Both the position numbers and the translations under genes were made by a program. The notes beneath the pieces are model-generated. The model was given only the letters and a program-made list of their open reading frames with translations. It had not been told where the DNA came from and made no database searches. Shown piece after piece: positions 5,901-31,967 of a DNA stretch of 35,857 bases. Within the stretch, counting starts at the first letter, position 1. Each line of letters starts with the position of its first letter. The stretch covers positions 1 to 35,857 of IMG/VR virus record IMGVR_UViG_3300044646_002153, one strand, 5' to 3'. This DNA comes from a virus.

Positions 5901-6356
5901 GCTCAAGAACTCTGAGTGTGTCTCCTTCACCACCTGGCTGAGCTGGAAGCGAGCGGGGAGCTCCGTACCGTCCGCCCAGAACTCTACCTGGTCGAAGAGA
6001 CTACGCCCAGCGTCCCGGGCGGCGAACATCCAGTCGTTAAGCCGTCTAGCTGCCGCATCCGGCCCTTGCCAGCGTGGCATGTATCGAGCAATGAGCGACC
6101 CAAAGTTGGTAATCCTGCCCTTCTTCAAGGACGCCGTGGCCGCCAGGTTGTGCTGAAAGGAGCGCTGAGCATAGAGGCGCATGAACTGAAAGAGCTCCTG
6201 GTCGTTCTGGAATGCTCTGATGTTGTACATCCTCGCCCGGCGAGCATTGTGCTCTGTGCGCCTGGTGCTATCTGTGGGCGGTGGGATTTCCTCACTCGCG
6301 GGGCGAGTGCTAGTGTAGTCGTTTACGTTTCTAGGCTGACAGCGTTCTATAGGCAT
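2934..6356 (-). CDS. Large internal virion protein (T7 gp16-like position)
   Basis: The 1140-aa protein is probably an ejected core protein that lines the DNA path during infection. It has a polar N-terminus, a long helical, coiled-coil-prone region around residues 290-420, and a C-terminal half rich in aromatic helical stretches such as FTRAWMQFTKYWKSAVLSTV and FWNYFSTSMPASLRNI. These are reminiscent of the membrane-active C-terminal regions of large podovirus internal proteins. I see no recognisable enzyme motif. It follows the other internal virion genes and precedes the tail fibre, the same position as T7 gene 16. The start ATG (6354-6356) lies inside the end of the upstream gene, a 10-base overlap. 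Function is inferred from position and length, not from a clear domain. Confidence 0.65.
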   Translation of the reverse strand: MPIERCQPRNVNDYTSTRPASEEIPPPTDSTRRTEHNARRARMYNIRAFQNDQELFQFMRLYAQRSFQHNLAATASLKKGRITNFGSLIARYMPRWQGPDAAARRLNDWMFAARDAGRSLFDQVEFWADGTELPARFQLSQVVKETHSEFLSISAGKNLSKDQLNRNWLDLVDNGLDKRAAEINQNGNTRWEEARRAKHQVDLEERLRSQGYTETEIRSLEDMLTRQAGVYDGALGIAQANRVGLESLQGRYNPRFFTPEMRDIMRKHKLTELGMSPNNTKYYSSVSDRLFSRETFEWGVNDELLLADAIGFDIGPTPARALIKDLEAKTNKYVAYAEKLQNRPKGRSDAQQAAMERRFDELGNELGEAERAVAEAKALAHGALQEHMLDDRTLSWDFAKMHEEKLDALVDSGVVGKLPLATTRVLDVLVERYQLPDFISKEVGRAVVVDPVRSFEMYKESMQSVMGDSMLINEMHVNAISNGFGISREMFEADRAKYRDYRPMGTLMDKYNIPSTNEAAKNVYLDKYAFDQMDAILSLSTEPAASSAFTRAWMQFTKYWKSAVLSTVEYIFRNSVETVVQGWRAGTNLALIPTSMQYLRDYMRFGPDALPTEKVFANGKYSVRDIFESMVSTRELELQAPMGGETLRRGVAGDDDYQRLRRMAGYSRPAQMWYDLQGRFGYMSAQLRAGDVTGTLRYAAGSIVEGQRQIYNTVTMPLAFFTDSMKLANMLTTMDSSRWARVGQFFTGAPMNRYENLDDAKRHLNEYMFRYDRGGVIDRAMSRAIPFWNYFSTSMPASLRNIMESPAQHIAYQRLYTAINGDAREDEDFTEAATPPWFGNQMPIVFKDPNGRENMWFSVDMSRLDPHMDLMRRLSEATTNIMRARGHHVGRFDQYIEDSREQRDGAFFRDVLGQMNNPVIQLAIAAWTQKNPFTEADFETRDTILGFDIGPVGPASGGFTKYVITTLAPQLNYVERTLRNQGVLPSRESSAIGSRTQYLNAAGELDVRPEVQSAFVRALSVVGFSPQLIDGYRNLQRTEASLTFTSQDIRRQAGRVLADARRETDAEQREELLIEVAKLRALATQVEAMNDMVMYELESNDQLLDAERKKFMYRDTTEAANQEFEELTGQPADRRRRSSN

Positions 6357-20670: not shown

Positions 20671-22647
20671 TTAACCCTGCATAACGTTTGCGAGTGCTTG
20701 CTCTGGTCCTACCCTGGCGTTTTCTGCCGCAACGGCGTTAACCATGGGAACGCCGCCACTCTGGTAAGCTAGCTGCTTTAACATTTCTGCCTCGTTTACT
20801 GGGGCCTCGGGCATTGGAGGAACGGCTCCTTGAGGCATCGCCTGGGGCACCATTTCTTGCGCTGGGGCCTGAGGCGCTGGCTGTTTTAAGAACTTGTCTA
20901 TGTCCTCGGAAAAGCCAAAACGCCTAGAGGCCATGCGCAGCAGCTCTTCCCAATTAATACTTTCTGTCCACTGGGGCACTTGCGACACGAGGTTAACAAA
21001 GTCGACTACTTGCTGAAGTTGTCGCTCTTTGTTGGCAATGTACTCGGCCCCGACAGGCATAATCTCGTAATCGAACATGAGCTCTCTGGGCCCAAAGTGC
21101 GCATAGATTTGCTCCCCGCGCTGCCCCGGGTATCGAATCACTTCGTCATAGGTGACATACTGGCGACACATCATTATCGTTTTGACCAGCATGGCGTGGA
21201 GCTGAGTGTTTTCGATGTGCCCATGGATAGAGCTCAACCGGTTTCCCCCGGCGTCTCGTACGGCTTGAATCTCCTGAGCAGTTACCCGCTCTCCCTTGCG
21301 GCCTTGCTGGGTGCCAATGTAGGCCCCGACGCCTACAGTCTTGTCGATGTTAATCTCGAGAAGATTTGTTTCTTGATAGGAGACGTAGACGCCATTGCCA
21401 TCCCGCTGGAGCGGGAAGACGTTTCCAGGAGTCGCCATGGGAATAATCTTACCAGGCTCTGTAACCATGTCAGCGGGGTCTGTAACGCCGTCTGGGACGT
21501 ATCCCCACATAGTGTCGACTAGCAACTCTAAGTTGTCCAGGCGCTGGTTAGAGAGCACGTTGAGCTGATGAATCATGCCCAGCACGGGCTCAAGTGGAGA
21601 TAAGCCATAGGGCCGCCCCGGCACCGGGATAGCCGTGCCAATAATAAAGGGCCGCCCGCCCCAATAAGGGTTGGGCTCCACTCGCGCCAGGTTGCTACCG
21701 ACGACAGTAATGACGACATCGTGATAGGTCACGCCCTCTACAGTAATGTCGCCCCAGAACTCGAGCACGTCCACAAGTTCTTTGGGGTCGTACTCCATGC
21801 CCAGGAAACGACTTACTCGCTCTGACTGCATCTTGGTGCGTCCGTTTACAGACGTGGCGACAACTGATGTTGGGTTGAGACGGTCATACTCTTTGGTCGC
21901 AATTTTGCGCATTACAGTCGCTTTTTCCTGGCGCATAACGCGAATAAAGTTGGCGCGGTTGATGTCCCTGGCAGAGTGGTCTAGGAAGCAATCAAAACTG
22001 TCTAGCACCTCAAGGCTGATGTTGTCATACTCAGGCACTTCTTCTTCAATCGCGGGGTATATTTTGTTACCTTCGTCGTCCTCTTTTTCAATCCGTCGCT
22101 TGCGAGTTACCAAACGCGTTTCCCAGGGCAGTGCTAGGACGCTAAAACCGGTCACAAGTAATTGTCGAATGTAAGTTTCCCAATAGGATGTAAATTGTGC
22201 TTCTCTGAGTTTTTTAGAGACGAAGCGTTTTGTGGCCTTGGCGACATCTGCAAGTTCTGGGTTCTCTGCCGGTACAACATCGAACCAGTCACTGCTGGGA
22301 AAGAACGCTGTTTGGAGGTACGCATTGATGGTTTCTATGATTTCATAACCCTTGCCACTGGCAATGCGATGGCGCCAATCGTCGTTGACGTCTCCTACGA
22401 GACGCGCCACTCTTTGGCGCAGAAACTCTTCCGCTTCTGGTGTACCAAAATAAGTGGCCCAGGATTCAAGCCACACTGTTTCGCGATTAGTCCTGGCGTT
22501 TCGGTAGGTCTCATAGAGGCCCAGCACTGCTTGCGCCAAAAATTCTGTCGCCGGTTCTGAAGTCTTCTGGTGTATGTTCCCTGCGGAGGTGTTTCCAGAA
22601 ACTGCAGTCGTTAAAAAAGACCCCGGAGCTGTCTGGGCATTGTTCAT
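20671..22647 (-). CDS. Portal (head-tail connector) protein
   Basis: The 658-aa protein has the T7-like portal pattern: a helical N-terminal region, a clip and wing region with WRHRIASGKGYEIIETINAY and FWGDITVEG, the stretch GRPYGLSPLEPVLGMIHQLN leading into the long stem helix, then GERVTAQEIQAVRDAGGNRL. The C-terminal 60 residues are Pro/Gln/Ala-rich and flexible. Twelve copies form the DNA channel at one capsid vertex and dock the terminase. The start overlaps the terminase stop in an ATGA, so the two are translated together. T7 gp8 is 536 aa; the extra length is mostly at the C-terminus. Confidence 0.9.
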   Translation of the reverse strand: MNNAQTAPGSFLTTAVSGNTSAGNIHQKTSEPATEFLAQAVLGLYETYRNARTNRETVWLESWATYFGTPEAEEFLRQRVARLVGDVNDDWRHRIASGKGYEIIETINAYLQTAFFPSSDWFDVVPAENPELADVAKATKRFVSKKLREAQFTSYWETYIRQLLVTGFSVLALPWETRLVTRKRRIEKEDDEGNKIYPAIEEEVPEYDNISLEVLDSFDCFLDHSARDINRANFIRVMRQEKATVMRKIATKEYDRLNPTSVVATSVNGRTKMQSERVSRFLGMEYDPKELVDVLEFWGDITVEGVTYHDVVITVVGSNLARVEPNPYWGGRPFIIGTAIPVPGRPYGLSPLEPVLGMIHQLNVLSNQRLDNLELLVDTMWGYVPDGVTDPADMVTEPGKIIPMATPGNVFPLQRDGNGVYVSYQETNLLEINIDKTVGVGAYIGTQQGRKGERVTAQEIQAVRDAGGNRLSSIHGHIENTQLHAMLVKTIMMCRQYVTYDEVIRYPGQRGEQIYAHFGPRELMFDYEIMPVGAEYIANKERQLQQVVDFVNLVSQVPQWTESINWEELLRMASRRFGFSEDIDKFLKQPAPQAPAQEMVPQAMPQGAVPPMPEAPVNEAEMLKQLAYQSGGVPMVNAVAAENARVGPEQALANVMQG

Positions 22648-24362
22648 CGAGTCCCTCCGTACTTATTGTTAACCGTGGCGGCCACACGGGTTCTGCGCTT
22701 CTTTCTCTCATTGGAACTGCGCACAGGGTGTGACAACTCACAAAGGACCGCAATAGCGTCAATGATATCGTCACGGACATCCGGGCTAGGAAAATATAAA
22801 AATTCTTCCTTGACCTCTTTACTCTGCGCATACCTCTGGCCCAAGTAAAGCTTTTCTTCGTTTAGCAGCGGCTCTATGTAGCCAAGGATACGTTCTTTTT
22901 TGTCGCCCTTGGGTTTATAGTCGATAATGGCTATCTGCTTTCCAAGTGCCTGATAGCCCTCAGCTATGGTGTATCGCAAATTTGCAAAACCGCCTACAGT
23001 CTCTACGTGGATGCTGGGAATGCGCCAGTAATCCGTGAGCTCCGCGAGTTGTGCGACAAGTTCTGAGGGCGTCCAGTGCCCAAAGCGAATTTCAAATACC
23101 AGCACTTCTCTATTGGGGCCTTTGCCGCCAAGAACTATCGCCGTCCAGTCAGCCGTGACAGACGTGCTCGCAGCGGGGTCTACGACAATCATGGGCTTAA
23201 TTTCGACCGGGTATTGGTAATCCGCCAGGTTGACTTTGAGAATGCCGTTGGGAGCCATCTGAATGGCGTTAGGCTGCACAAAGCGCATTGAGGCCCAGCC
23301 TAGTTGACCATCGTCCTCGACGAGGTGAGTGTTGAGATACTGGCTTGCAAAGCGTTTAGACGGCAGCCGTCGGCGTAGCTTTTTCTCCATCTGGTCGTCA
23401 AAGCCTTCCGGCCAGAGATAGCCATTCGTAGCGTCTACACCATTTGCGTAGATGTTTCTAAAGAACGTGTGTAGAGGGTCGTCATTTTGCGTGGATAGAA
23501 ACTCGTGCAGCTCTTCGTCGTCGTCAATGTCTTCGCCAAGCAGAGAGCTGTAATAGTCCCAACTGTAATACCGAGTGCCGAGGATGACAATCTCGTCTCC
23601 TCTATCAACCGTTTCGTCATAAGGGTTTAGGACCGACTCGATATCGTAAGTCCAGGATTTAATTTTGTTCGCTTTGACCAAAGAATCACTATTGTCGAAC
23701 GTTACCAAGTCGTCAAATATGACCAGGTCATAGTGTTCCCCCGTGTTTGGCGACCCTACCGAGGCTGCCGTTATGGTAGGCTCCTTGTAAATCTCTGTGC
23801 GGTTTACCTGAAGCTTGTCCGCACGCCAGACAACTTTCTGGTCAGCGGCCTCGGTGTAGCCCTCGTCGTAGTCGTCCTCAAACTCGTTGTACTTGTTCCT
23901 GCGAGACTTGGCCCTCGCCTGGCCAGTGCGGTCCAGGGCGGGAATGAGCGGCCCAGAGTAGTGTGGGCGACTATCCCAGACGTGCTCCCTGAGGTCTTTG
24001 TTTTCAAAGTACTGCTTAATTTCCCGCACAAAGGCGCTAGCAAGGTTGTCCTTGTTTGCCGTTCCCACCATAATGCGAATGTTTGGGTCTTTATAAACGC
24101 GCCACATAACGTAGAGCGTTGAGGCAAAAGAACTTTTTAAGTGGCCCCGGGGGATAAGAATCAGCCTGCGCTCTCTGGTGCTTTGAAGAAAAGCGGCGAG
24201 TTCTTTGTGCACCTGTCCAAAACTCTCTGGGCCCCCGTAGAAGTGAATGAGCTCGAGAAACGCCCACAAGTCTGTGAGCGCTCTAGTCTTTAAGCGCTGA
24301 AACTCTAGTTTGCTTAGGCGCTCCCAGGGGGGTTTAATTGAGTTTCTCGGTTTGCGTCTCAT
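22644..24362 (-). CDS. Terminase large subunit
   Basis: The 572-aa DNA-packaging motor has an N-terminal ATPase with a deviant Walker A, RGHLKSS at residues 72-78, and Walker B with acidic pair VIFDDL (D217, D218). The coupling motif region LGTRYYSWDY lies near 261-270. The C-terminal RNase H-fold nuclease has VVDPAAST (D395) and a second acid near D405, with DDIIDAIAVL near the end. This is the T7 gp19 type, which cuts concatemers to unit genomes with terminal repeats. The gene's first 29 bases overlap the small upstream 57-aa gene. Confidence 0.93.
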   Translation of the reverse strand: MRRKPRNSIKPPWERLSKLEFQRLKTRALTDLWAFLELIHFYGGPESFGQVHKELAAFLQSTRERRLILIPRGHLKSSFASTLYVMWRVYKDPNIRIMVGTANKDNLASAFVREIKQYFENKDLREHVWDSRPHYSGPLIPALDRTGQARAKSRRNKYNEFEDDYDEGYTEAADQKVVWRADKLQVNRTEIYKEPTITAASVGSPNTGEHYDLVIFDDLVTFDNSDSLVKANKIKSWTYDIESVLNPYDETVDRGDEIVILGTRYYSWDYYSSLLGEDIDDDEELHEFLSTQNDDPLHTFFRNIYANGVDATNGYLWPEGFDDQMEKKLRRRLPSKRFASQYLNTHLVEDDGQLGWASMRFVQPNAIQMAPNGILKVNLADYQYPVEIKPMIVVDPAASTSVTADWTAIVLGGKGPNREVLVFEIRFGHWTPSELVAQLAELTDYWRIPSIHVETVGGFANLRYTIAEGYQALGKQIAIIDYKPKGDKKERILGYIEPLLNEEKLYLGQRYAQSKEVKEEFLYFPSPDVRDDIIDAIAVLCELSHPVRSSNERKKRRTRVAATVNNKYGGTR

Positions 24363-24507
24363 CGCTCTCCTCGCTTTTTTCTTCCGACATCTCAGAGAGT
24401 GTAATGTGAAGTGCTTCTACAATCACCTGGTAGAGTCCACGAATTGCAGGGGGAATGAGAATCTCTATAAGGCGCAGAGCTTCTAAAATTTTTTCGCTAA
24501 AAGTCAT
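24334..24507 (-). CDS. Small 57-aa protein upstream of terminase, function unknown
   Basis: A short frame from ATG 24507 to TAA 24334 encodes 57 residues. The ATG lies two bases after the stop of the preceding coiled-coil gene, which also provides AGG for ribosome binding, and its 3' end overlaps the terminase gene by 29 bases; this spacing is that of a real operon member. The first 36 residues are amphipathic to hydrophobic (ILEALRLIEILIPPAIRGLY), the last 20 very acidic. T7 places a small holin and other short genes around its small terminase, so a membrane or packaging role is possible, but charged residues in the hydrophobic stretch make a transmembrane helix doubtful. Confidence 0.6.
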   Translation of the reverse strand: MTFSEKILEALRLIEILIPPAIRGLYQVIVEALHITLSEMSEEKSEESDETQTEKLN

Positions 24508-24509
24508 CG

Positions 24510-24959
24510 CTACCTGGGCCTGTAGGCCATACCGAACTGTCGTCTCCTAATCTCTTGTGCACGTCTCTGAGCGGCGCTACGTGCCTGGTTAGTAGCCTGG
24601 AGTGTAAATAGGCTCTGCTGCTGCTCACGGGCCTGTACGGTTTCTCTCTGCGCACGCTGTTCGGCAAGAGCACTAACGCGCTGCTGCTCCTGTAGAATAG
24701 AATCAAAAAAGGAGAGCTGCTGCTGCTGTTGCACCCTGAGCGTTTCTGCTCTTTCGCGCTCAGCGGCGGAGAGAGCCTCAAACTGAGCCGCTGTCTGCGC
24801 CATTTGTCGGCGCATCAGGGCCTCTTGGCGAGCAAACGCCTCTTTTTGAAGTTTCACTTGCTGAGCCATTAAACGCTCTTGCTCGGCTTGCTGAAGTGCC
24901 TGAGTTGCCTGAGACGTTGATTGGTCCTGTGGTTTACTCCCTCCGCCGCCAAAACCCAT
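24510..24959 (-). CDS. Small coiled-coil protein, probably virion-associated
   Basis: The 149-aa product starts with a glycine-rich MGFGGGGSKP segment and continues as an almost uninterrupted Gln/Glu/Ala/Arg coiled coil to its basic end (RRRQFGMAYRPR). The Gly-rich start followed by a helical rod resembles small internal virion proteins of podoviruses, but the gene lies upstream of terminase rather than with the other internal proteins. It starts two bases after the stop of the 118-aa gene and its stop is two bases before the 57-aa gene. I do not recognise a named family. Confidence 0.65.
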   Translation of the reverse strand: MGFGGGGSKPQDQSTSQATQALQQAEQERLMAQQVKLQKEAFARQEALMRRQMAQTAAQFEALSAAERERAETLRVQQQQQLSFFDSILQEQQRVSALAEQRAQRETVQAREQQQSLFTLQATNQARSAAQRRAQEIRRRQFGMAYRPR

Positions 24960-24961
24960 AA

Positions 24962-25318
24962 CTACTCCTCAACTTCAGTATTTTCCAATTCTGCACTCTG
25001 TTTTTTAGAGCGAGACGACGTAGAAGTTTTAGAAGACGCGCTTGCTTTGCGTGTCTTTTTAACGACCTCAGCGGCTTCTAGAAGGATGTCTTCTTCTTCT
25101 ACCTGCTGTGCCTCGGCAACAGAGTTTACAATGTGCCGCTGGCGCTTTTCGGCTTTTTCTTTATTGTAGGTGCGAAGACGGGCGATGTTTTCTTGAGCAC
25201 GCTCGTTAATAATTACAGAGCGCTCAATCAGTTTTGTCGAAAGAGCGTCCAAATTCTGAGGTGTTGGGGTAGTCGCAAGACTCGGTTTTTGAGAAAGTAA
25301 GGATTGAATTAAGTCCAT
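24962..25318 (-). CDS. First gene of leftward late operon, unknown
   Basis: The 118-aa protein has a polar N-terminus, a helical centre (residues 25-85) with basic and then acidic stretches, and a Ser/Thr/Lys-rich tail ending in acidic residues. It is the promoter-proximal gene of the late operon and sits three genes upstream of the large terminase. A small terminase subunit would be expected nearby in a T7-like phage and no other gene qualifies clearly, but I see no helix-turn-helix motif, so that is only a possibility. The ribosome-binding site is weak (ACCTGGTGC upstream of the ATG). Confidence 0.6.
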   Translation of the reverse strand: MDLIQSLLSQKPSLATTPTPQNLDALSTKLIERSVIINERAQENIARLRTYNKEKAEKRQRHIVNSVAEAQQVEEEDILLEAAEVVKKTRKASASSKTSTSSRSKKQSAELENTEVEE

Positions 25319-25467
25319 TTTTGCACCAGGTTACAATTAAATCCGCCACTAACACGGTAAGAATCAGTTCGAGCATAGGGGTAGTAGTGTGCTGCTACAC
25401 ATGGTTTAGCCGTTACAGCACCTTGCTAATATTCCATCGACCAAATATACCTAGCTGAGGAGCATTT
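25319..25467. promoter_or_regulatory. Divergent intergenic region between late operon and rightward module
   Basis: These 149 bases separate the two transcription directions and must hold the start signals for the leftward structural operon and the rightward surface module. I find no clear host-type promoter on either strand. On the plus strand TTTAGC and TAATAT with 16 bases between are a weak match. A short inverted repeat GTGT-N6-ACAC lies in the middle. Late genes may use a phage-specific polymerase signal that I cannot identify. Confidence 0.4.
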
Positions 25468-25719
25468 ATGGCTCTTAACGTTCTCTATGAAACGACTACC
25501 AACATTGGTGGCGATTTACGGAACCCTGGCTACGGAATGATTTGCGCCGTTGTTCACCCAGACAAACTCTTGGCGGCTGACGATGTTTTGCTTATTGCGG
25601 ACACTCTTCAGTTTGACATCCAAGAAAGTGATGTGAATAACGCCGCTTTGCTTGTTAAAGGGCCCAATGCGGATGTTGATTTTCGACAATCCGCTATTCA
25701 GGAAGACCCTACTCCGTAG
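25468..25719 (+). CDS. Small 83-aa protein, unknown
   Basis: I do not recognise this protein. It is mildly acidic with a beta-like pattern (GMICAVVHPDKLLAADDVLL) and no signal or membrane segment. GAGGAG at 25457-25462, five bases before the ATG, is one of the strongest ribosome-binding sites in the window, and a terminator follows at 25742-25762, so it may be expressed strongly as its own unit. It is the first rightward gene after the late-operon divergence and precedes the adhesin-like genes, which suggests a small virion or decoration protein, but that is a guess from position. Confidence 0.7.
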   Translation: MALNVLYETTTNIGGDLRNPGYGMICAVVHPDKLLAADDVLLIADTLQFDIQESDVNNAALLVKGPNADVDFRQSAIQEDPTP

Positions 25720-25741
25720 TCGGTTTACTTCGACAAAACAG

Positions 25742-25762
25742 CCAGGCCCCTGTCTGGTTTTT
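25742..25762 (+). terminator. Rho-independent terminator after 83-aa gene
   Basis: CCAGGC (25742-25747) pairs with GTCTGG (25752-25757), including one G-T wobble, around a CCCT loop, and five T follow directly. It lies 23 bases after the stop of the 83-aa gene and would separate that gene from the downstream surface-protein genes, at least partly. Confidence 0.78.
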
Positions 25763-25790
25763 ATAATCAGCCCTACAGCTTTTACACACT

Positions 25791-26468
25791 ATGACTACGT
25801 CCAACGAACCACCCGAGTTTTATAACAACCCTCCGTATTTAACTACTCAAGAGCTTCAAGACCTCATTACTTTAGAAGCCGAACGAGCTGGCGGCGGGGG
25901 CGGCGGTGGGGGTAACGGCACTGTAACGGTTACTGGACAGGTTGAAATTAAGAACGACTCTGGTAATCCTATTCCAGTGTCTGGTGCACTTACCAATACA
26001 GAACTTAGAGCCACTGCTGTACCCGTCAGTGGTCCCCTTACAGACACTCAGCTCAGAGCTACAGCCGTTCCAGTTTCTGGGCCGCTGACTCAGGCGCAAT
26101 TAACCGCCGCCGCTTTAGCTACCGATTCCGTTTCCCAGGCAATTAGAGATAGATTGCCAACTACCCTGGTTGGAGGACGGCTTAATGTTGAGCCCCTCGG
26201 CATTCCAGGAGTAGCACGGCAGCTTGCTGCTGGGGCGGCTACCGCAAACACCACTCTAACTGTAGGAGTTGGAAGAATTAGTATTTACGCCCGTGGGGCG
26301 GATATACGATACGCCATTGGCAGCAGTACTCAAACGGCTTCGGCTACAACTTCTCATTTTATTGCTTCGGGAGAACGGCTTGACCTTGATGTTCCAGCGA
26401 CTCCTAACATCGCCGTTATTCGTGCTGGTTCTACAGACGGGACTCTAGAGCTTACTGAACTATCATGA
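25791..26468 (+). CDS. Virion-surface repeat protein with glycine hinge
   Basis: The 225-aa protein has a polar N-terminus (residues 1-33), an eight-glycine hinge (34-41), a beta region, then three tandem copies of a PVSGxLTxxxLRA unit (about 62-106), and a beta-rich C-terminal domain ending in IRAGSTDGTLELTEL. Tandem PVSGPLT repeats are common in phage structural and head-decoration or fibre proteins. The glycine run suggests a flexible link between an anchor and an exposed domain. It overlaps the downstream LamG-like gene in an ATGA, so both are probably made together. A role as fibre or decoration protein is inferred. Confidence 0.65.
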   Translation: MTTSNEPPEFYNNPPYLTTQELQDLITLEAERAGGGGGGGGNGTVTVTGQVEIKNDSGNPIPVSGALTNTELRATAVPVSGPLTDTQLRATAVPVSGPLTQAQLTAAALATDSVSQAIRDRLPTTLVGGRLNVEPLGIPGVARQLAAGAATANTTLTVGVGRISIYARGADIRYAIGSSTQTASATTSHFIASGERLDLDVPATPNIAVIRAGSTDGTLELTELS

Positions 26469-27286
26469 GATTAAGAGCCACCCGACTATCGGGCATTTCT
26501 AGCAGCTCCCGCCGACTCTGGACGCCCGCTCAACTGCCCGGCCTCGCTCTATGGCTCGACGCCACCGACATCAGCACTATCACGCTGAACGGCGGGAACG
26601 TCAGCCAGTGGAATGACAAATCGAGCAACGCTCGGCACGCTACGCAGCCAAACGCATCGTCTCAAATTCCCTACAACTCGACCGGCTTGAACAACAAGCC
26701 TGCATTAGTATTTCCGAGCGCTTCAAACAATCTGTCAATTTCCACAGCCCATTATTCGTGGGCACCCGACCGGAAGTTTGCTAACTTTACGGTTGCAAAT
26801 TTAACGAATACAACCTCAGCCATATTTCTGAGGTTGCTGAACAGCGAAACGCCGGGAACAACTGGAACAGATTATCCACAGGGGTATATGGGCACCGGTA
26901 GCCCTAGCACAAATTTCTTTGCAATTGCTGGCGTAGCATTAACTACGCCGCAAATTGCTGGACTGTTCGGCGCGCCACGAGTTTTGGCGCAAATATTCGG
27001 AACGGGCGGCGTGGGAGCGGATGTCCACGGTGCCAGCATCGACGCGGGCACCATTTTGCAAACGCCAAACTGCACGGGGCTACTGGCGACCCAGGGGATG
27101 AGGATTGGCTCGGTTCTCTTAAACCCGTTTTCGTGGCGTGGCCCGATAGGCGAGGTTGTTCAGGTTAGCGGCGACCTGACGGTGCTGAACCGCCAGCGCG
27201 TAGAGGGCTACCTCGCGCACAAGTGGGAGATGGCAACCAACCTGCCCGCCAATCATCCGTTCCGCTTTACACCACCAACGGCTTGA
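26465..27286 (+). CDS. LamG/concanavalin-like adhesin candidate
   Basis: The 273-aa protein starts with a short basic tail, then WTPAQLPGLALWLDATD, followed by a GGNVSQWNDKSSN-type segment. It ends in IGEVVQVSGDLTVLNRQRVEGYLAHKW and LPANHPFRFTPP. This opening and closing pattern is characteristic of laminin-G/concanavalin-like jelly-roll domains in phage and bacterial surface proteins that bind glycans. No signal peptide is present. Its base composition looks more GC-rich than the gene before it, which may mean separate acquisition. It most likely forms a glycan-binding part of the virion, distinct from the leftward tail fibre. Confidence 0.72.
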   Translation: MRLRATRLSGISSSSRRLWTPAQLPGLALWLDATDISTITLNGGNVSQWNDKSSNARHATQPNASSQIPYNSTGLNNKPALVFPSASNNLSISTAHYSWAPDRKFANFTVANLTNTTSAIFLRLLNSETPGTTGTDYPQGYMGTGSPSTNFFAIAGVALTTPQIAGLFGAPRVLAQIFGTGGVGADVHGASIDAGTILQTPNCTGLLATQGMRIGSVLLNPFSWRGPIGEVVQVSGDLTVLNRQRVEGYLAHKWEMATNLPANHPFRFTPPTA

Positions 27287-27293
27287 GCGCACC

Positions 27294-27539
27294 ATGAAAT
27301 ACCGCATCTTCGACACCGAGGCCGAGACCGTCGCCGCCGAAGCGGCCATTAGTGCTGCGATGGGATATCCCAAGCCTGGTATCAATGCTGCTACTGGCGA
27401 AGTAGAGCCCTATTGCATAACAGCACGCTGGGCCGTACCGCAACAGATTGCCGATGGCCGATGGGTATTTCCAAGCCCTGACGACGAAGGCGTAGAAGCT
27501 GACGAAGATTGGTTTCCTGCTCCAGAGGGTAACCTATGA
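27294..27539 (+). CDS. Small acidic protein at end of surface module
   Basis: The 81-aa protein has an N-terminal helix (EAETVAAEAAISAAMG), the segment ARWAVPQQIADGRWVFPSP and an acidic tail. Small proteins ending in WA...DGRWVFP occur next to fibre genes in several phages, so it may be a fibre partner or chaperone; I cannot name the family. It follows the LamG-like gene by 7 bases. Its TGA overlaps an ATG (27536) of a nine-codon frame that runs straight into the hairpin-rich non-coding region, perhaps a remnant of a lost gene. Confidence 0.65.
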   Translation: MKYRIFDTEAETVAAEAAISAAMGYPKPGINAATGEVEPYCITARWAVPQQIADGRWVFPSPDDEGVEADEDWFPAPEGNL

Positions 27540-27546
27540 CCACAAC

Positions 27547-27917
27547 TCTTTTAGACGCCTTCTAAAAACGACAAGGGTGCTCGTTTAGGGTTTGGTCGTC
27601 TCGTTGAAAAGAGCGACCTCATAGCGTATTCTGTCGTCTCCTGGGATGTCATTCGCTCTATAGTACCTTACGCGGTTCTCTGGGCTTAGTTCTCTGAGAG
27701 CCGCTAAATGTTTTTCATTCATGCTTTCAACATATAGAGTAGTAATACGCTTAGAAGACGAACGAAGAGAGTCTTCTACTTCTACTCGTCTTTAGGAAAG
27801 ACTCGTAGAAGCATAGTGTCGTCTTCTAGACGAAGCGACATTTCTCTTTTAGCGACAGTGAGATGTTTAGTTCTGTATCATCAACACTCTCGTCTTATAG
27901 ACGCCTCTTATAGACGC
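27547..27917 (+). repeat. TCTTNTAGACG repeat, four copies
   Basis: TCTTTTAGACGC at 27547, TCTTCTAGACG at 27822, and two copies of TCTTATAGACGC at 27893-27904 and 27906-27917, the last two 13 bases apart start to start. Each copy contains an internal inverted repeat (for example CGTCT-TAT-AGACG at 27891-27903). They may be binding sites for a phage protein, such as origin iterons or operators. Confidence 0.6.
27752..27839. repeat. Three back-to-back stem-loops
   Basis: TAGAAGAC (27752-27759) pairs perfectly with GTCTTCTA (27771-27778). The next base begins a second hairpin, CTTCTAC and GTCTTT (27779-27793) against AAAGAC and GTAGAAG (27797-27811), with a 2x2 internal loop of TC opposite TC. 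Six bases later GTCG-T-CTTC (27818-27826) pairs with GAAGCGAC (27832-27839), leaving a bulged T. A hairpin with the same bulged T (GGTCG-T-CTC against GAGCGACC) lies upstream at 27594-27618. Almost every base of 27752-27839 is in a stem or short loop. Confidence 0.7.
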
Positions 27918-27980
27918 TTGTGCCCCGCCCTTCCCCGTGAGGGGAATAGCATCAACGGTGGGCTCTGAGACGCCTTAGGC

Positions 27981-27997
27981 GAGACTTAAACGGTCTC
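27981..27997 (+). repeat. GAGACC-type repeat, copy 1
   Basis: GAGACT-TAAAC-GGTCTC, with one T-G wobble in the stem, followed by TCTAAAGGCG. This copy lies in the gene-free region and shares the downstream TCTAAAGGCG with copy 2. Confidence 0.7.
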
Positions 27998-28008
27998 TCT
28001 AAAGGCGC

Positions 28009-28040
28009 CTCTACGAGTTCCTATTTAGGAACGAGTAGAG
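28009..28040. repeat. Stem-loop sharing both arms with 27780-27810, in inverted orientation
   Basis: CTCTAC-GA-GTTCCTA (28009-28023) pairs with TAGGAAC-GA-GTAGAG (28026-28040), leaving a symmetric 2x2 GA/GA internal loop. Read on the minus strand, its arms TCTACTCGT and ACTCGTAGA are identical to those of the hairpin at 27779-27811, while the inner stem and loop differ. Tandem GA mismatches are stable in RNA. Confidence 0.65.
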
Positions 28041-28074
28041 GAGGAAGCTCGAGTGGTCGTCGCTACCGCTGTTT

Positions 28075-28164
28075 AGTGAACGAGAGCTTTCTCTAGAAAG
28101 CGTGAGCGGTTTTTCTAGAGGAGAAGTAAAGCACTCAGCTCTCTTTAACTCTCGCTTCTTCACT
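28075..28164. repeat. Long-range paired element with internal hairpin
   Basis: AGTGAA and CGAGAG (28075-28086) are complementary to CTCTCG (28149-28154) and TTCACT (28159-28164), with CTTC bulged between the two halves. Inside lies a 6-bp hairpin, GCTTTC-TCTA-GAAAGC (28086-28101), followed by a TTTTT run at 28110-28114. This could be a folded RNA domain or part of a terminator region. Confidence 0.45.
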
Positions 28165-28281
28165 ACGAAGCTTAACAGGTTAAACAGCTCTATTTATCTA
28201 CGTGTATATACTAGACTTTCTATATATATAAGAGAGACTAATAGTAATGTCGTATAGTATGTAGTTCGCTTTATAATAGGC

Positions 28282-28298
28282 GAGACCTAAACGGTCTC
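28282..28298 (+). repeat. GAGACC-type repeat, copy 2
   Basis: GAGACC-TAAAC-GGTCTC, a perfect 6-bp inverted repeat, followed by TCTAAAGGCGAG. It lies about 185 bases upstream of the -10 box of the first early promoter. Confidence 0.8.
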
Positions 28299-28482
28299 TC
28301 TAAAGGCGAGTGTTATCTAAGGCGTGACGTTTTTAGGACGTAAATTTTGTGAGTGTTGTCATATATATATATCGCGCCCTATCCCCCCCATGCGCCTCCC
28401 TCGTACGCGTGTATCATAGTATGTGTGCTCTATAGTGCTTTTGTCCTATAGTACCTCTAAACACTTGAGTTTGCGTAGGTAC

Positions 28483-28511
28483 TTGACAAATTTGTCCTAA
28501 TCGCCTATAGT
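28483..28511 (+). promoter_or_regulatory. Host-type promoter for SAP-domain gene
   Basis: A perfect -35 TTGACA (28483-28488), a 17-base spacer and -10 TATAGT (28506-28511) lie 50 bases before the first early gene. The 20 bases from the -10 onward, TATAGTGAAAGTGTCGAAAT, recur exactly at the promoter at 30422. Confidence 0.88.
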
Positions 28512-28561
28512 GAAAGTGTCGAAATTAAACAGCGACATTCACCACTACACAGGTACTAATC

Positions 28562-29221
28562 ATGAAAGTTAACTACACCAAGTCCACCAAGACCGCTCAC
28601 GTCTCTACTTCCCTACGCGCTGAGATGCTGACCTATGGCCGCAGCATAGGCGCCGTGACGCATACGCATGACCAACCAGTGGCATACCGTGGCTTACAGC
28701 GTGCGTGTAAAGCCGCTGGGGTGTCTGCCAAGGGTAGCACTGCCGTGTTGAGAAAGCGTCTATGGGAGGCGGAGTTTGGCTCTAAGGAACCCAACGCCGT
28801 ACCCCTTACAAGGCGTCAACGCCAGGCGCTTGTAGAGTCGACGCCAGTAGACGTACAAAGTGAGAACGATTCTCATTCTCAGTTCGACTACGCCGCCGCC
28901 TATGGCATGGATACCGCCGTAACCTACGCGGTTCCCGACCCCGCGCCAGAACCCGCCGATAGCCCAGCACCTAAGGCGCGTAAGGCCCCTAAGGCGCCCG
29001 CTAAGCGCCGCCTATCTTCCATCGGGGTAGGGTACCGTGAGACCCAGCGCTTTGTCGCCTTGTGGCGCGAGCAAGACCGTCTGACAATGCCTGCCAAAAA
29101 TACCGGATGGGACAATGTCGAGGAAAATGTACAGTTCATCCTCGACCAACCCCGCTTCTGGGGGTGGGCCAGCACCGAACACGGCACCGCCGCCCTGGCC
29201 GCGCTAGGGGTAAGCCTCTAA
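28562..29221 (+). CDS. SAP-domain DNA-binding protein, first early gene
   Basis: The 219-aa protein has a SAP-type helix-turn-helix segment at about residues 42-72 (YRGLQRACKAAGVSAKGS, then a helix ending in LRKRLWEAE), a fold that binds DNA in nuclear and phage proteins. An acidic and Pro-rich middle (100-135) leads to a Lys/Pro/Ala-rich basic linker (138-150) and a C-terminal helical domain with aromatic residues. It is the first gene downstream of the strongest host-type promoter, the position of host take-over genes in T7-like phages. A role in binding host or phage DNA is plausible; the partner is unknown. Start ATG 28562 is followed by a good coding run; no strong ribosome-binding site is visible. 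Confidence 0.75.
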   Translation: MKVNYTKSTKTAHVSTSLRAEMLTYGRSIGAVTHTHDQPVAYRGLQRACKAAGVSAKGSTAVLRKRLWEAEFGSKEPNAVPLTRRQRQALVESTPVDVQSENDSHSQFDYAAAYGMDTAVTYAVPDPAPEPADSPAPKARKAPKAPAKRRLSSIGVGYRETQRFVALWREQDRLTMPAKNTGWDNVEENVQFILDQPRFWGWASTEHGTAALAALGVSL

Positions 29222-29271
29222 TCTCTCTCACCTCGCACACCGTGTCCTAGGCTTGAGCAAGTGCCAAGCTA

Positions 29272-29311
29272 GCGAGACCTCCACGGTCTCTCAAGAGGTC
29301 GCTAGACCTCG
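29272..29311 (+). repeat. GAGACC-type repeat, copy 3 (two-hairpin form)
   Basis: GAGACC-TCCAC-GGTCTC (29274-29290) is followed by TCAA and a second hairpin GAGGTC-GCTA-GACCTC (29295-29310). The GAGGTC arm can instead pair with GACCTC at 29276-29281, inside the first hairpin, so the two folds exclude each other. Confidence 0.8.
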
Positions 29312-29353
29312 AGTCGACATCTAGCCCAGGGTTTGCGATAACCCTAAGGGCCT

Positions 29354-29393
29354 GCGAGACCTCAACGGTCTCTAGAGAGGTCACAAGACCTCG
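29354..29393 (+). repeat. GAGACC-type repeat, copy 4 (two-hairpin form)
   Basis: GAGACC-TCAAC-GGTCTC (29356-29372) is followed by TAGA and GAGGTC-ACAA-GACCTC (29377-29392). The second loop differs from copy 3 while both stems are kept. Confidence 0.8.
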
Positions 29394-29409
29394 CTAGGCC
29401 ACGGTGCAA

Positions 29410-29449
29410 GCGAGACCTTAACGGTCTCTCAAGAAATCGCTAGACCTCG
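29410..29449 (+). repeat. GAGACC-type repeat, copy 5 (second hairpin decayed)
   Basis: GAGACC-TTAAC-GGTCTC (29412-29428) is followed by GAAATC-GCTA-GACCTC (29433-29448), in which two of six pairs of the second stem are lost. It lies 37 bases before the next gene. Confidence 0.75.
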
Positions 29450-29485
29450 AAACGTCCACACAACTGCCATGAAGGAGTCTATAAA

Positions 29486-29677
29486 ATGAAACGTCAATCC
29501 CGCCTTGGATATAAACCAGTGCCCAGAGTGTCTGGGCACCTCGTTCCCAACCTCATCACCGCCGCCCTGGCGGTAGGTATGGGGTGGCTACTTTCGGCAC
29601 CGCTGACCTATACTGTTCAAGAGGTCGCCTGTGGGCCTCATGCACTACAATTCACTTGTGATAATGCACGACCCTAA
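29486..29677 (+). CDS. Small single-span membrane protein
   Basis: The 63-aa protein has a basic N-terminus and one hydrophobic segment at about residues 22-44 (NLITAALAVGMGWLLSAPL), then a short tail with two Cys. AAGGAG at 29472-29477, eight bases before the ATG, is a clear ribosome-binding site. The same AAGGAGTCTA context precedes the gene at 33282. The topology fits an inner-membrane protein; holin or host-membrane modulator are both possible. The following gene starts inside its end. Confidence 0.7.
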   Translation: MKRQSRLGYKPVPRVSGHLVPNLITAALAVGMGWLLSAPLTYTVQEVACGPHALQFTCDNARP

Positions 29678-30245
29678 TCCCAATCCCACTCAATTAATCA
29701 AGCTCGCCCGCGCCCTAGAGGCGCGAGACCCTGTACTGTACCAGCAGGGTCTCAACTGGTACACCGCCGCATATGACCAGGCGGTGTTCCTGGCTGACTA
29801 TTATGGTACCTACAGCGCCACCCAAGTGGCGGGGGTACTCGCGGCACTCTCGCCCCAGGTATCCTGGAAGAGAAACGTAGAACTCGCTGAGTCTGCAATA
29901 GTTTCTCACCTAAGCGGTCTACCTATAACCGGCCAGACCGGTGACAACTGCGCAAAAGCCCAGCGCGTTCTCGACGGGTCTTCCCCGCTAGATGTCCTAG
30001 GCGGTCTCAAAGTCAGGGCCTTCTACCAGTGCATCCTGGCCAAAGGTCAAACAGACTCAGTCTGTATCGACCGCCACGCACTGGCCGCGTGGTATTGCCC
30101 AGGCCAGGCGGTATGGGGGTCGCTAACCCCTAATCGTTACCGTGCCGTGGCGGCTGACTATGTCACCGCCGCGCGTGTCCTAGGGGTCTCTCCCGCCGTA
30201 TGTCAGGCGGTGGTATGGTGTGCATGGAGGTGTAGCGCCGACTAG
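29664..30245 (+). CDS. Unknown early protein with helical DNA-glycosylase-like pattern
   Basis: The chosen ATG 29664 gives 193 aa starting MHDPNPNPTQLIKLARAL; in-frame ATG 29640 and GTG 29631 would add 8 or 11 residues. It overlaps the membrane-protein gene by 14 bases. The protein is helical with the conserved-looking blocks VLAALSPQVSWKRNVELA (58-75), GGLKVRAFYQ (113-122) and DSVCIDRHALAAWY (131-144). This order (SPQ-x-W-x-RN, then GxKVxxFY, then IDRHA) occurs in a family of phage proteins of unknown role and resembles helix-hairpin-helix base-excision glycosylases. I would not claim glycosylase activity without a structural match. A terminator follows at 30262. Confidence 0.65.
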   Translation: MHDPNPNPTQLIKLARALEARDPVLYQQGLNWYTAAYDQAVFLADYYGTYSATQVAGVLAALSPQVSWKRNVELAESAIVSHLSGLPITGQTGDNCAKAQRVLDGSSPLDVLGGLKVRAFYQCILAKGQTDSVCIDRHALAAWYCPGQAVWGSLTPNRYRAVAADYVTAARVLGVSPAVCQAVVWCAWRCSAD

Positions 30246-30261
30246 CCTATCCTAATCACTC

Positions 30262-30293
30262 GGGGTCGCTTAACTGCGGCCCCATTTTAATAA
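30262..30293 (+). terminator. Rho-independent terminator
   Basis: GGGGTCGC (30262-30269) pairs with GCGGCCCC (30276-30283), with one T-G wobble, around the loop TTAACT, followed by ATTTTAATAA. It lies 17 bases after the stop of the preceding gene and closes the first early transcription unit before the next promoter at 30399. Confidence 0.85.
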
Positions 30294-30301
30294 CCTTCAG
30301 A

Positions 30302-30318
30302 GAGACCTTCTAGGTCTC
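30302..30318 (-). repeat. GAGACC-type repeat, copy 6 (inverted orientation)
   Basis: GAGACC-TTCTA-GGTCTC reads on the minus strand as GCGAGACC-TAGAA-GGTCTCTC, so it is the only copy in the opposite orientation. It is flanked by a direct repeat of CCTTCAG (30295-30301 and 30320-30326) and lies just after the terminator. The second hairpin is absent. Confidence 0.75.
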
Positions 30319-30398
30319 GCCTTCAGCACGGTAGGACCACCGCGCGTCCTGTAAAATTGTGCAATAGGTTACAAGTTCATTTCAAACGCCTATAGGGC

Positions 30399-30427
30399 TT
30401 GACAAACTCTAAAAGGCGTGGTATAGT
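30399..30427 (+). promoter_or_regulatory. Host-type promoter with conserved leader
   Basis: TTGACA (30399-30404), 17 bases, TATAGT (30422-30427). The -10 and the next 14 bases are identical to those at 28506-28525, so transcripts from both promoters begin alike. Confidence 0.88.
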
Positions 30428-30457
30428 GAAAGTGTCGAAATCAATGGAGTGTAATCA

Positions 30458-30658
30458 GTGTCTAGAACCCGTCGAAACCTTCCCAAGCACTGCTTCCGCC
30501 GCCCCCGTGGGCGACGGGCTGTAGAGGCACAACGTGACCAAGCCATTTCACAGGCTCAGGATGTGGGCCTACGCCTGGCGGGCAACCGCTGGGCAATACC
30601 ACCCGATGGCTGGGAGGACATTGAGTTCGCGTCTATTCGAGAGGCAAAGTATGACTAA
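30458..30658 (+). CDS. Small basic protein, unknown
   Basis: The 66-aa product starts at GTG 30458, with GGAG at 30446-30449 eight bases upstream, and is very basic at the N-terminus (MSRTRRNLPKHCFRRPRGRR), which suggests nucleic-acid or phosphate contact. The C-terminal part is neutral to acidic (DGWEDIEFASIREAKYD). It overlaps the next gene by 8 bases. It is the first gene after the second early promoter. No family is recognised; a 25-codon frame from ATG 30445 covers the same DNA but is less likely. Confidence 0.6.
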   Translation: MSRTRRNLPKHCFRRPRGRRAVEAQRDQAISQAQDVGLRLAGNRWAIPPDGWEDIEFASIREAKYD

Positions 30659-30872
30659 AAAGTATCTCCATCACCAAGAGTGTTACCAAGAGTGGCGAGA
30701 GTTATACTTTCTCGCCCTCGAGCGCGGAGATGAGAGCGGCTGTCGCCGCGCAATCTTCGAGATGGCCCGCCATGATGTCACCGCAGCCCTCATGAGCTGG
30801 GAGACGGGGCCAGATAACATGCGCAGTGAGCGCCTGGCTCACTACCGCATAAAGTATGGCCTAGGGGCTTGA
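30651..30872 (+). CDS. Small 73-aa early protein, unknown
   Basis: ATG 30651 has GAGG at 30641-30644 and six bases of spacing; it begins MTKKYLHHQECYQEWREL. The longer reading from 30534 would cover most of the preceding gene and is rejected. The protein is helical and charged (FLALERGDESGCRRAIFEM), with no recognised motif. Its TGA stop (30870-30872) is part of the -35 box TTGACA of the next promoter, so gene end and promoter are fused. Confidence 0.65.
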   Translation: MTKKYLHHQECYQEWRELYFLALERGDESGCRRAIFEMARHDVTAALMSWETGPDNMRSERLAHYRIKYGLGA

Positions 30873-30897
30873 CAAACCCCTCGAAATCTGCTACGTT
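30869..30897 (+). promoter_or_regulatory. Host-type promoter overlapping a stop codon
   Basis: TTGACA (30869-30874), a 17-base spacer and a weaker -10, TACGTT (30892-30897). It would transcribe the twin CX3C gene and probably the 225-aa gene after it. Confidence 0.65.
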
Positions 30898-30921
30898 AGT
30901 TAGTAAAAGCTGGGGAGCGCA

Positions 30922-30934
30922 CTAACCCGGCACT
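30922..30934 (+). repeat. Leader element CTAACCCGGCACT, copy 1
   Basis: CTAACCCGGCACT lies in the leader of the twin CX3C gene, 18 bases before its start; an identical copy is at 31251-31263 before the next gene. The bases just after it (TTATCCACA and AATCACACA) are also similar, so the two leaders share about 20 bases. Confidence 0.6.
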
Positions 30935-30952
30935 TATCCACATGAGGTCAAA

Positions 30953-31177
30953 ATGAGTACAGCAATTATTTGTGCGTGGGCTGGCGGTATATGTCTCGGT
31001 ATTGCGGCGATGAATATTGTCACGCCCGAATGCCCCTATCCCGCCCCGGCCCCAGCGCCTGTCCCCGCCGCCTCTATGCTGGTCAGCAACCAGCCTGTGC
31101 AGACGCCACTAGAGCGCTGCCTCGCTCGTTGCACCACTGGCGTATGCCAGAGGAACTGCGTGTTCAAACACAAGTAG
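30953..31177 (+). CDS. Small membrane-anchored or exported protein with twin CX3C motif
   Basis: The 74-aa protein starts with a hydrophobic helix (residues 4-23, IICAWAGGICLGIAAMNIV), which could be a signal or membrane anchor, followed by an Ala/Pro-rich linker (29-40). The C-terminal part holds C56, C60, C65 and C69 in a CX3C-X4-CX3C pattern (CLARCTTGVCQRNC), which could bind a metal or form two disulfides in a helical hairpin. GAGG at 30944-30947 precedes the ATG by five bases. The linker and Cys module suggest action outside the cytoplasm. No family is recognised. Confidence 0.65.
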   Translation: MSTAIICAWAGGICLGIAAMNIVTPECPYPAPAPAPVPAASMLVSNQPVQTPLERCLARCTTGVCQRNCVFKHK

Positions 31178-31201
31178 TTCCTCAACCCCTCGCCGGGTAG
31201 C

Positions 31202-31242
31202 GAGACCTCAACGGTCTCTCAAGAGGTCACGATAGTGGCCTC
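31202..31242 (+). repeat. GAGACC-type repeat, copy 7 (extended second hairpin)
   Basis: GAGACC-TCAAC-GGTCTC (31202-31218) is followed by TCAA and GAGGTCAC-GATA-GTGGCCTC (31223-31242), where the second stem is extended to 8 bp with a T-G wobble. The first hairpin also overlaps CTCGC-N6-GCGAG at 31189-31204. Stem kept while loop and bases change supports a folding requirement. Confidence 0.8.
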
Positions 31243-31250
31243 GTGGGGCT

Positions 31251-31263
31251 CTAACCCGGCACT
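31251..31263 (+). repeat. Leader element CTAACCCGGCACT, copy 2
   Basis: An identical copy of the element at 30922-30934, here 26 bases before the ATG of the 225-aa gene and followed by a short CA repeat (31267-31279). Confidence 0.6.
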
Positions 31264-31289
31264 AATCACACACACACACGGAGAGAACC

Positions 31290-31967
31290 ATGTTAAACGA
31301 AAGTATCATCGAAGGTATTTCTGACATCGCGAGTCTAGGTATTGATGATTTCGATGACGAAATGCAGCAAGTAGCAGAGCGCCTAGCCCTAGCATATTTG
31401 ACCGGCAGGTGCCGGGCGGCTGAGTGCCGCCAGAACGGCGCTAGCGACATTCTCACCGTCTGGCTGCACAGCCAGGTGAAGCGCGACAGAGACCAGTGGG
31501 TGCATCGCCGCACGGGGTGCGTCTTTAGGATGGTCAATAGAGTCTCGAACTACGATTCTAATCTCACGTGGATGTCCCAGGCCGTCAAGGCTGGGTTCTT
31601 GGACGTCGCCAAGACGTGTATAACAGGTGGTAGCCCGCTTTGGAGCGATACCACCAACGACATTTTCAGGGGGCTGCACGATGTAGCCCACGTGGAATAC
31701 GGTCTAGGCTTTACCACAGAGGAGGAGTGCCACCTGGCGCTTCTCACGTGCGGCGACTTTCTAGAGTGGGTAAATCAAACTCCCATTCTTGACCCCATCT
31801 GGGCGGGGCACTGGGACGAAGCCGCCGTTTCCCAGGCCACCAACGCCCTCCTGTCGGAGATTGCCCTCCAGGCCGTCGCGGTCTGGTGGCTGGGCGGGTT
31901 TGACAAAACTCGCGAGAACCCCTATACTGGGGAAGTGCTGCACTACAGCCAGAAGGTCATAGTCTAA
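31290..31967 (+). CDS. 225-aa early protein with HDxxH-type motif
   Basis: The ATG is preceded by GGAGAG four bases upstream. The C-terminal half contains NDIFRGLHDVAHVEYGLGF and TTEEECHLALL (residues 123-151: H130, D131, H134, E144-146, H148). This pattern, FRxxHDxxxH, then G-x-GF, then EEE, recalls a phage protein family with FRAxHDxFGHA and GEE blocks that may bind a metal; the match is partial. The N-terminal half is helical, with Cys at 41 and 46. The gene's end contains a strong promoter for the next gene. Function is unknown; a metal-dependent hydrolase is one possibility. Confidence 0.6.
   Translation: MLNESIIEGISDIASLGIDDFDDEMQQVAERLALAYLTGRCRAAECRQNGASDILTVWLHSQVKRDRDQWVHRRTGCVFRMVNRVSNYDSNLTWMSQAVKAGFLDVAKTCITGGSPLWSDTTNDIFRGLHDVAHVEYGLGFTTEEECHLALLTCGDFLEWVNQTPILDPIWAGHWDEAAVSQATNALLSEIALQAVAVWWLGGFDKTRENPYTGEVLHYSQKVIV
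31900..31928 (+). promoter_or_regulatory. Host-type promoter inside the 3' end of the 225-aa gene
   Basis: TTGACA (31900-31905), 17 bases, TATACT (31923-31928). It is entirely within coding sequence, 46 bases before the stop, and would drive the paralogue family. Confidence 0.82.

Follow-up and report, generated by a model that had tools for sequence, protein, structure and literature searches.

A very probable concatemer junction, with a predicted packaging cut site and an adjoining hairpin cluster, in a metagenomic relative of the Saffermanviridae

Introduction

The closest described counterparts of the locus reported here are the terminal-repeat (DTR) junctions of the Saffermanviridae, which are podoviruses infecting filamentous freshwater cyanobacteria. 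In Pf-WMP3, PP, A-4L, Pf-WMP4, LPP-1 and TR020, the junction lies between the terminase-side small ORFs and the first early genes, and it presents an A/T-rich stretch, the cut, a run of C residues approximately 25 nt inside the repeat and an early promoter at the left end. The repeat is 107–810 bp long in these relatives; the A-4L record carries an exact terminal repeat of 810 bp, and a range of 107–234 bp is given for the group (PMC10140849).

The ends of T7 and T3 are laid out in a similar manner: the C-run starts at nt 26 of the DTR, an A/T box and the word TGAGTG or TGAATG stand just left of the cut, and promoters are found near the ends, where both phages have phiOL and phiOR. The right edge of the repeat is also shared by these two phages, as TGTGTCCCT followed across the edge by ATCTGTTA; no right-edge motif common to the cyanophages was seen. 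A further parallel comes from the cobaviruses SIO1 and ICBM1, a different phage group that is compared here by description rather than by sequence: the ORF-free inter-module region corresponds to the DTR, the 5' end of which is conserved and GC-rich, and in SIO1, a stretch devoid of ORFs that separates two modules turned out to be the DTR region (PMC6775973).

The DNA analysed here, referred to throughout as the window, is the whole of IMGVR_UViG_3300044646_002153, a linear metagenomic virus record of 35,857 bases in IMG/VR. On sequence comparison, the stretch between its late and early genes is very probably a concatemer junction, the joined genome ends of a cyanopodovirus that is T7-like and akin to the Saffermanviridae, with a packaging cut site that can be predicted.

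Results

Gene content and affiliation of the contig

The window is a linear fragment that lacks the replication core, the part expected to hold the DNA polymerase and primase/helicase genes and, judging from relatives, to measure 5–7 kb, and it carries a T7-like podovirus gene set comprising terminase, portal ('head–tail adaptor'), capsid, tail, peptidase, ParB-like and tail-fibre genes. From the terminase to the tail fibre, all are on the − strand (24362 down to 1629), and the order across the window is tail fibre, ParB-like, peptidase, tail, capsid, portal and terminase (−), then small ORFs, the predicted genome end and start, and early genes on the + strand. The late gene order is that of Pf-WMP4, PP, TR020 and LPP-1, and the terminase, portal, capsid and tail genes are homologous to those of the Saffermanviridae. 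The terminase (22644–24362) is 40% identical to those of Cyanophage PP and Pf-WMP3, and 37% identical to that of Anabaena phage A-4L, by tblastn, and 40–44% identical to those of Pf-WMP3, A-4L and TR020 by alignment. A blastn search with 27300–28800 against 50,697 phage records gave no match; given this result, and a terminase amino acid identity of at most 44% to the aligned classified members, we regard the window as a relative of the family. Both contig ends fall within the early/replication side, with exonuclease and thymidylate synthase genes at one and MazG at the other, as would be expected if assembly had collapsed the terminal repeats and then broken the circle elsewhere. P-SSP7 was first assembled as a circle, and its DTRs were found later (PMC3350473).

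In the ORF list, the last + strand gene of the surface/late module occupies 27294–27539 and encodes a product of 81 aa with no match in PHROG or Pfam. The first early gene (28562–29221, +; 219 aa) is 48–51% identical to positions 5997–6626 of L010 (IMGVR_UViG_3300013133_001752; 7,570 bp), the only contig found to carry both the orthologous region and the same early genes: retrieval of relatives through the early proteins yielded nothing beyond it for the region, and a scan of viral contigs for the exact terminus pattern returned it alone. The early protein encoded at 29631–30245 corresponds to Pfam DUF7178 (PF23802) and has homologues in L010 and A-4L. The kilobase between the two flanking genes had been described as gene-free, which requires correction: a small conserved ORF of 45 codons, read leftward, lies at 27585–27722 (−), and its product shares 41% amino acid identity over 44 aa (E 2e-5) with that of L010 5239–5370, which has the same position relative to the junction. 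The true non-coding gap is, therefore, 27723–28561 (839 bp). On its other side, the small ORF of L010 has a different neighbour, the portal gene ending directly at it (5004–5445), and the arrangement looks as if the segment matching window 20671–27540 were inverted; this difference points to a rearrangement or a misassembly in one of the two contigs.

A conserved block at the predicted genome end

The non-coding sequences of the window and L010 have almost entirely diverged, save for one 60-bp block: window 28330–28389 is 82% identical to L010 5735–5794, and is the most conserved non-coding piece between the two. On the + strand, the block reads TTTTTAGGACGTAAATTTTG-TGAGTG-(cut)-N~25-CCCCCCC, and it matches the surroundings of known DTR starts, where an A/T box, TGAGTG and the cut are followed by a C-run approximately 25 nt inside the repeat; we predict that it serves as the terminase recognition and cleavage site. 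In all 12 DTR phages checked, which range from T7 to the cyanophages (Pf-WMP3, A-4L, PP (taken from the record start), Pf-WMP4, LPP-1, TR020, T7, T3, SP6, phiKMV, Syn5 and P-SSP7), a C-run (C4 to C8) begins at nt 20–29 of the DTR. In 11 of these known DTRs it is a run of C5 or longer beginning at nt 20–27, SP6 having C4 at nt 29, and the probability of a C5+ run at that distance from a random site is 0.006. An A/T box such as AAAATTTTG lies left of the cut in most DTR phages, and a TGAG-like word in several; the DTR of A-4L begins with TCTAATAATAATAGGGCGCTGCATTTCCCCCC after ..TATTTGAGTGAG, and that of Pf-WMP3 (234 bp) with TATAGTATGTGTATGTGTAGTGTGTTCCCCCC.

The pattern TGAGTGN{18,32}CCCCCC occurs once in the window (0.02 expected). 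When a matrix was derived from seven phages whose ends are known, its best site in the window was at 28384 (23.5 bits); the next distinct site scored 10.8, and the maximum over 60 shuffled genomes was 16.4. The same block is the top site in L010. On leave-one-out, the matrix ranks most other phages' ends poorly, probably owing to variable spacing, and it is thus no general detector of genome ends. A similar block lies 1.4–6 kb beyond the terminase in approximately 18 further IMG/VR contigs, which were picked by eye from a mechanical list of C-runs in 80 terminase-related loci; as a control for this choice, C6 runs were compared for an A/T box in front of them, which is present for 13 of the 27 that are non-coding and oriented as expected, versus 11 of the 86 others (Fisher p = 0.0003). 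Relatives with an A/T-box-to-C-run block are L033, L035, L046, L050, L054, L055, L059 and L061–L064, and also L069, L073, L075, L086, L107 and L108. Such blocks probably represent unmarked genome ends of uncultured relatives.

The position of the junction, with the terminase-side end on its left and the first early gene on its right, is supported by synteny with Pf-WMP3, A-4L, PP, Pf-WMP4, LPP-1 and TR020. The genome ends of Pf-WMP3 and A-4L lie at the same point, which the window crosses without a break at approximately 25.3–28.6 kb. From the distances to the C-run and to TGAGTG, we infer that the left end of the DTR, and hence the genome terminus, is at about 28358 (28357–28361), the cut falling within approximately 3 nt of that position; by synteny with Pf-WMP3 and A-4L, 28358–28561 (+) would then be the left part of the repeat.

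Promoters on the early side

The early promoter that had been proposed for this region is supported by a host-type TTGACA-17-TATAGT (11/12) at 28483–28511 (+), the counterpart of which in L010 reads TTGACT-17-TATATT. In Pf-WMP4, a host promoter is annotated within the left end (190–233), so the arrangement in the window is a usual one. A near-identical host-type promoter (also 11/12) occurs at 30399–30427, both being followed by GAAAGTGTCGAAAT, and there is a third TTGACA at about 30870. Sites resembling TACTATAGG were considered as T7-type phage promoters on the − strand, and were set aside: 31 were found against 21.9 expected, which is not a clear enrichment, and the sites closest to the early gene coincide in part with the −10 box of the host-type promoter. 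Unlike T7 and T3, the window has no identified phage RNA polymerase or phiOL/phiOR-type promoter.

The hairpin cluster

Just left of the predicted cut, 27724–28357 contains 12 hairpins, none overlapping another, whose stems are perfect over at least 5 bp, in agreement with the at least 12 inverted repeats of the preliminary description; shuffled sequences have 6.1 ± 2.0, and 1 of 300 reaches 12. Eight of the hairpins have stems of at least 6 bp (2.0 in shuffles, none of 300 reaching eight), a count that only one of 107 other segments of this length in the window reaches. The suggested comparison of folding energies with shuffled controls likewise came out in favour of structure, with z-scores for the whole stretch of −4.3 on the + strand and −5.1 on the − strand. 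The density is not, as had been thought, unlike the rest of the genome: the gaps at 29222–29485 (z −5.4) and 30246–30457 (z −5.3) are equally structured, and the lowest z among 120-nt windows (−6.2) is at 31141. Moreover, the structure is concentrated in the left half of the stretch, and the folding of the 331 nt that abut the predicted cut on its left is unremarkable (z −0.6).

The individual features that had been noticed were all recovered. Three hairpins stand back to back, at 27752–27778 (TAGAAGAC/GTCTTCTA, 8 bp), 27779–27811 and 27815–27842, and together they give a z of −3.0 when folded as RNA and −4.2 when folded as DNA, the DNA minimum-energy structure being partly re-paired. A bulged T is common to 27815–27842 (GTGTCG[T]CTTC..GAAGCGACA) and 27594–27618 (GGTCG[T]CTC..GAGCGACC), the latter lying inside the 3' part of the small ORF, and a 2 × 2 internal loop is common to 27779–27811 and 28008–28041. 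In addition, a short hairpin word, CGTCTTNTAGACG, recurs within 27820–27916 (+), being exact at 27820 and 27891 and having one mismatch at 27904; it has 10 matches in the window at up to two mismatches, against 2.6 expected.

In the 600 bp left of the cut, hairpins of at least 6 bp number seven in the window, L010, L069 and L073, and between none and four at the other 21 sites, suggesting that they are unnecessary for junction function in general. Left of its junction, L010 has different repeats, a tandem AAGAAGCGTATAATT and a perfect hairpin AAGCGCCTATAAGTACTTATAGGCGCTT, which indicates that the hairpin sequence is not conserved; the stems of the cluster are absent from this contig, the only relative with an orthologous region. 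The ends of T7 carry other short repeats rather than a cluster of this kind.

An inverted pair of hairpins with tandem G–A mismatches

The two hairpins that share the 2 × 2 loop are related and stand in inverted orientation. Read on the − strand, 27779–27811 is CTTCTAC-GA-GTCTTT-CCT-AAAGAC-GA-GTAGAAG, and read on the + strand, 28008–28041 is CCTCTAC-GA-GTTCCT-ATTT-AGGAAC-GA-GTAGAGG, each thus consisting of 7 bp, a tandem G–A mismatch, 6 bp and a short loop. They are the only hairpins of this architecture in the window (0.04 expected); no others with G–A mismatches were found in approximately 3 Mb (both strands) of fetched loci, and the pattern gave a single Enterococcus match in prokaryote genomes, which is no more than chance by estimate. 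Four of the 13 base pairs differ between the two hairpins by changes on both sides, with no pair broken and the G–A mismatches kept. This is the strongest sign in the region of selection on structure, albeit one that comes from a single pair and allows no firm conclusion, and template-switch correction of palindromes could be an alternative source of the compensatory changes. We take the pair to resemble REP/BIME-type elements in that two related imperfect hairpins, both with internal mismatches, stand inverted to each other, and, presumably, to differ from them in having no GTAG foot in the REP position, in occurring as one pair only and in that no such transposase was seen.

A dispersed hairpin element

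A further element, GCGAGACCTNAACGGTCTCTC, has seven copies in the window, at 27981, 28282, 29274, 29356, 29412 and 31202 on the + strand and at 30301 on the − strand, all of them in non-coding gaps of the junction/early side. Two of these fall in the cluster: GAGACCTNAACGGTCTCT at 27981–27998 (+), which has one mismatch that leaves a G–U pair on the + strand, and GAGACCTAAACGGTCTCT at 28282–28299 (+). At 29274, 29356 and 31202, the element and a second hairpin behind it, with the sequence GAGGTC..GACCTC or a variant, form a double hairpin. The exact pattern is absent from the orthologous gap of L010, which has, at the site matching 29250–29330, a simple hairpin between matching flanks (GTGCCAAGC..GCCCAGGGTTT). 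Two sets of contigs with shared words were attributed to chance: L005–L009 share the exact GAGACC hairpin word and encode no related proteins, and L017–L021 share TTTTTAGGACGTAAATTT, which three near-identical members carry at an apparent gene 3' end.

Discussion

The arrangement can be read as follows. From left to right, the stretch would comprise the unique right end of the genome (the small ORF and then the hairpins), the terminase block, to be cut near 28358, and the beginning of the DTR; the repeat would span the early promoter and extend towards the first early gene, if not into it. Replication would join genomes head to tail via the DTR, the terminase would recognise the block formed by the A/T box, TGAGTG and the C-run, cutting both there and where the repeat ends on the right, and duplication would give each virion two copies of the repeat. 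The two genome ends would be seen as one continuous sequence because assembly collapsed both copies of the DTR. Relative to the junctions of the Saffermanviridae, the window differs in its lack of a DNA-level match, in its longer gap, which is packed with hairpins, and in that its DTR is a predicted one. Of the three options in the preliminary description, the processing region stands, as processing of DNA at a probable terminase-cut junction, and the structured RNA is not supported. For the third, an origin, no specific evidence was found; by analogy with phiOL and phiOR near the ends of T7 and T3, a secondary origin is possible.

What the hairpins themselves do is a separate matter, on which we lean only tentatively towards a role at the level of DNA: situated on the unique right end, they may, as extruded hairpins, pause forks or polymerase, or serve end completion or recombination. 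A bolder version, which we consider distinctly improbable, is that the right end carries a dedicated DNA hairpin module, in which the inverted pair (27779–27811/28008–28041), with its conserved tandem G–A mismatches, and the further stems would be recognised as single-stranded or extruded DNA by a phage protein that completes or duplicates the terminal repeat. In T7-like replication, these last steps have been described as incompletely understood (PMC3350473).

To a second reading we assign the same, equally tentative, standing: the hairpins may have no essential role and be dispersed palindromic repeats that have accumulated and drifted where the non-coding DNA of this lineage tolerates them. 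The confinement of all seven copies of the dispersed element to gaps on the junction/early side is in keeping with this, as are the strong variation in hairpin density among relatives and the simple hairpin of L010, which occupies the same gap between matching flanks as if the element had been inserted there. Against it, the four compensatory changes and the preserved tandem G–A mismatches argue for selection on at least one hairpin pair, and the exact pattern of the GAGACC element has no copy in 84,980 prokaryote genomes, so that no outside source is known for it.

The remaining functional readings are less likely than the DNA-level role that we prefer. It is unlikely that the cluster is an undescribed structured RNA, made by read-through from the upstream + strand genes or leftward from the junction. 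The sequence does fold clearly better than its shuffles, two hairpins of the same architecture differ by compensatory pair changes, and six of the seven copies of the dispersed element have the same loop orientation on the + strand, the element showing G–U rather than broken pairs. However, stability is equal on the two strands, Rfam gave nothing at the gathering threshold (the best sub-threshold hit, E 0.68, being attributable to chance), the stems are not conserved in L010, and the best early promoter lies to the right of the cluster. Moreover, since the matched G–A hairpins are oppositely oriented, no single transcript would hold both in their G–A forms. No tRNA or tmRNA genes were found.

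Equally doubtful is the proposal that the hairpins, lying between modules, terminate transcription or are processed in the manner of RNase III sites. Their location between converging or successive transcription units would suit such a function, and in T3, stem-loops annotated for RNase III occupy gaps between early genes; against this, there are no T-tailed terminator-like sites in 27540–28561, and the three in 27000–31400 compare with 3.3 expected. Most stems of the cluster are also too short for classical RNase III sites. Finally, it is very improbable that this is no genome end at all but a plain intergenic spacer or a product of misassembly: the window is an unverified metagenomic contig and the neighbour of the small ORF differs in L010, but the conserved block, the synteny and the C-run spacing are held in common with 12 phages whose ends are known.

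The junction itself is of a known kind; what is new here is a useful spacing rule and one unusual pair of hairpins. In the literature searched, we found no paper stating the C-run rule across these phage families, the closest published precedent being the conserved GC-rich DTR start of the cobaviruses (PMC6775973). For the phage, what had been a puzzling 'gene-free structured region' becomes a defined landmark that orients the contig, with base 1 of the genome predicted at about 28358, and the junction block offers a testable candidate for the terminase recognition site. Assembly usually erases T7-like genome ends, and the rule (an A/T box, often a TGAGTG-like word, the cut and a C-run approximately 25 nt inside) could help in finding them from assembled sequence alone.
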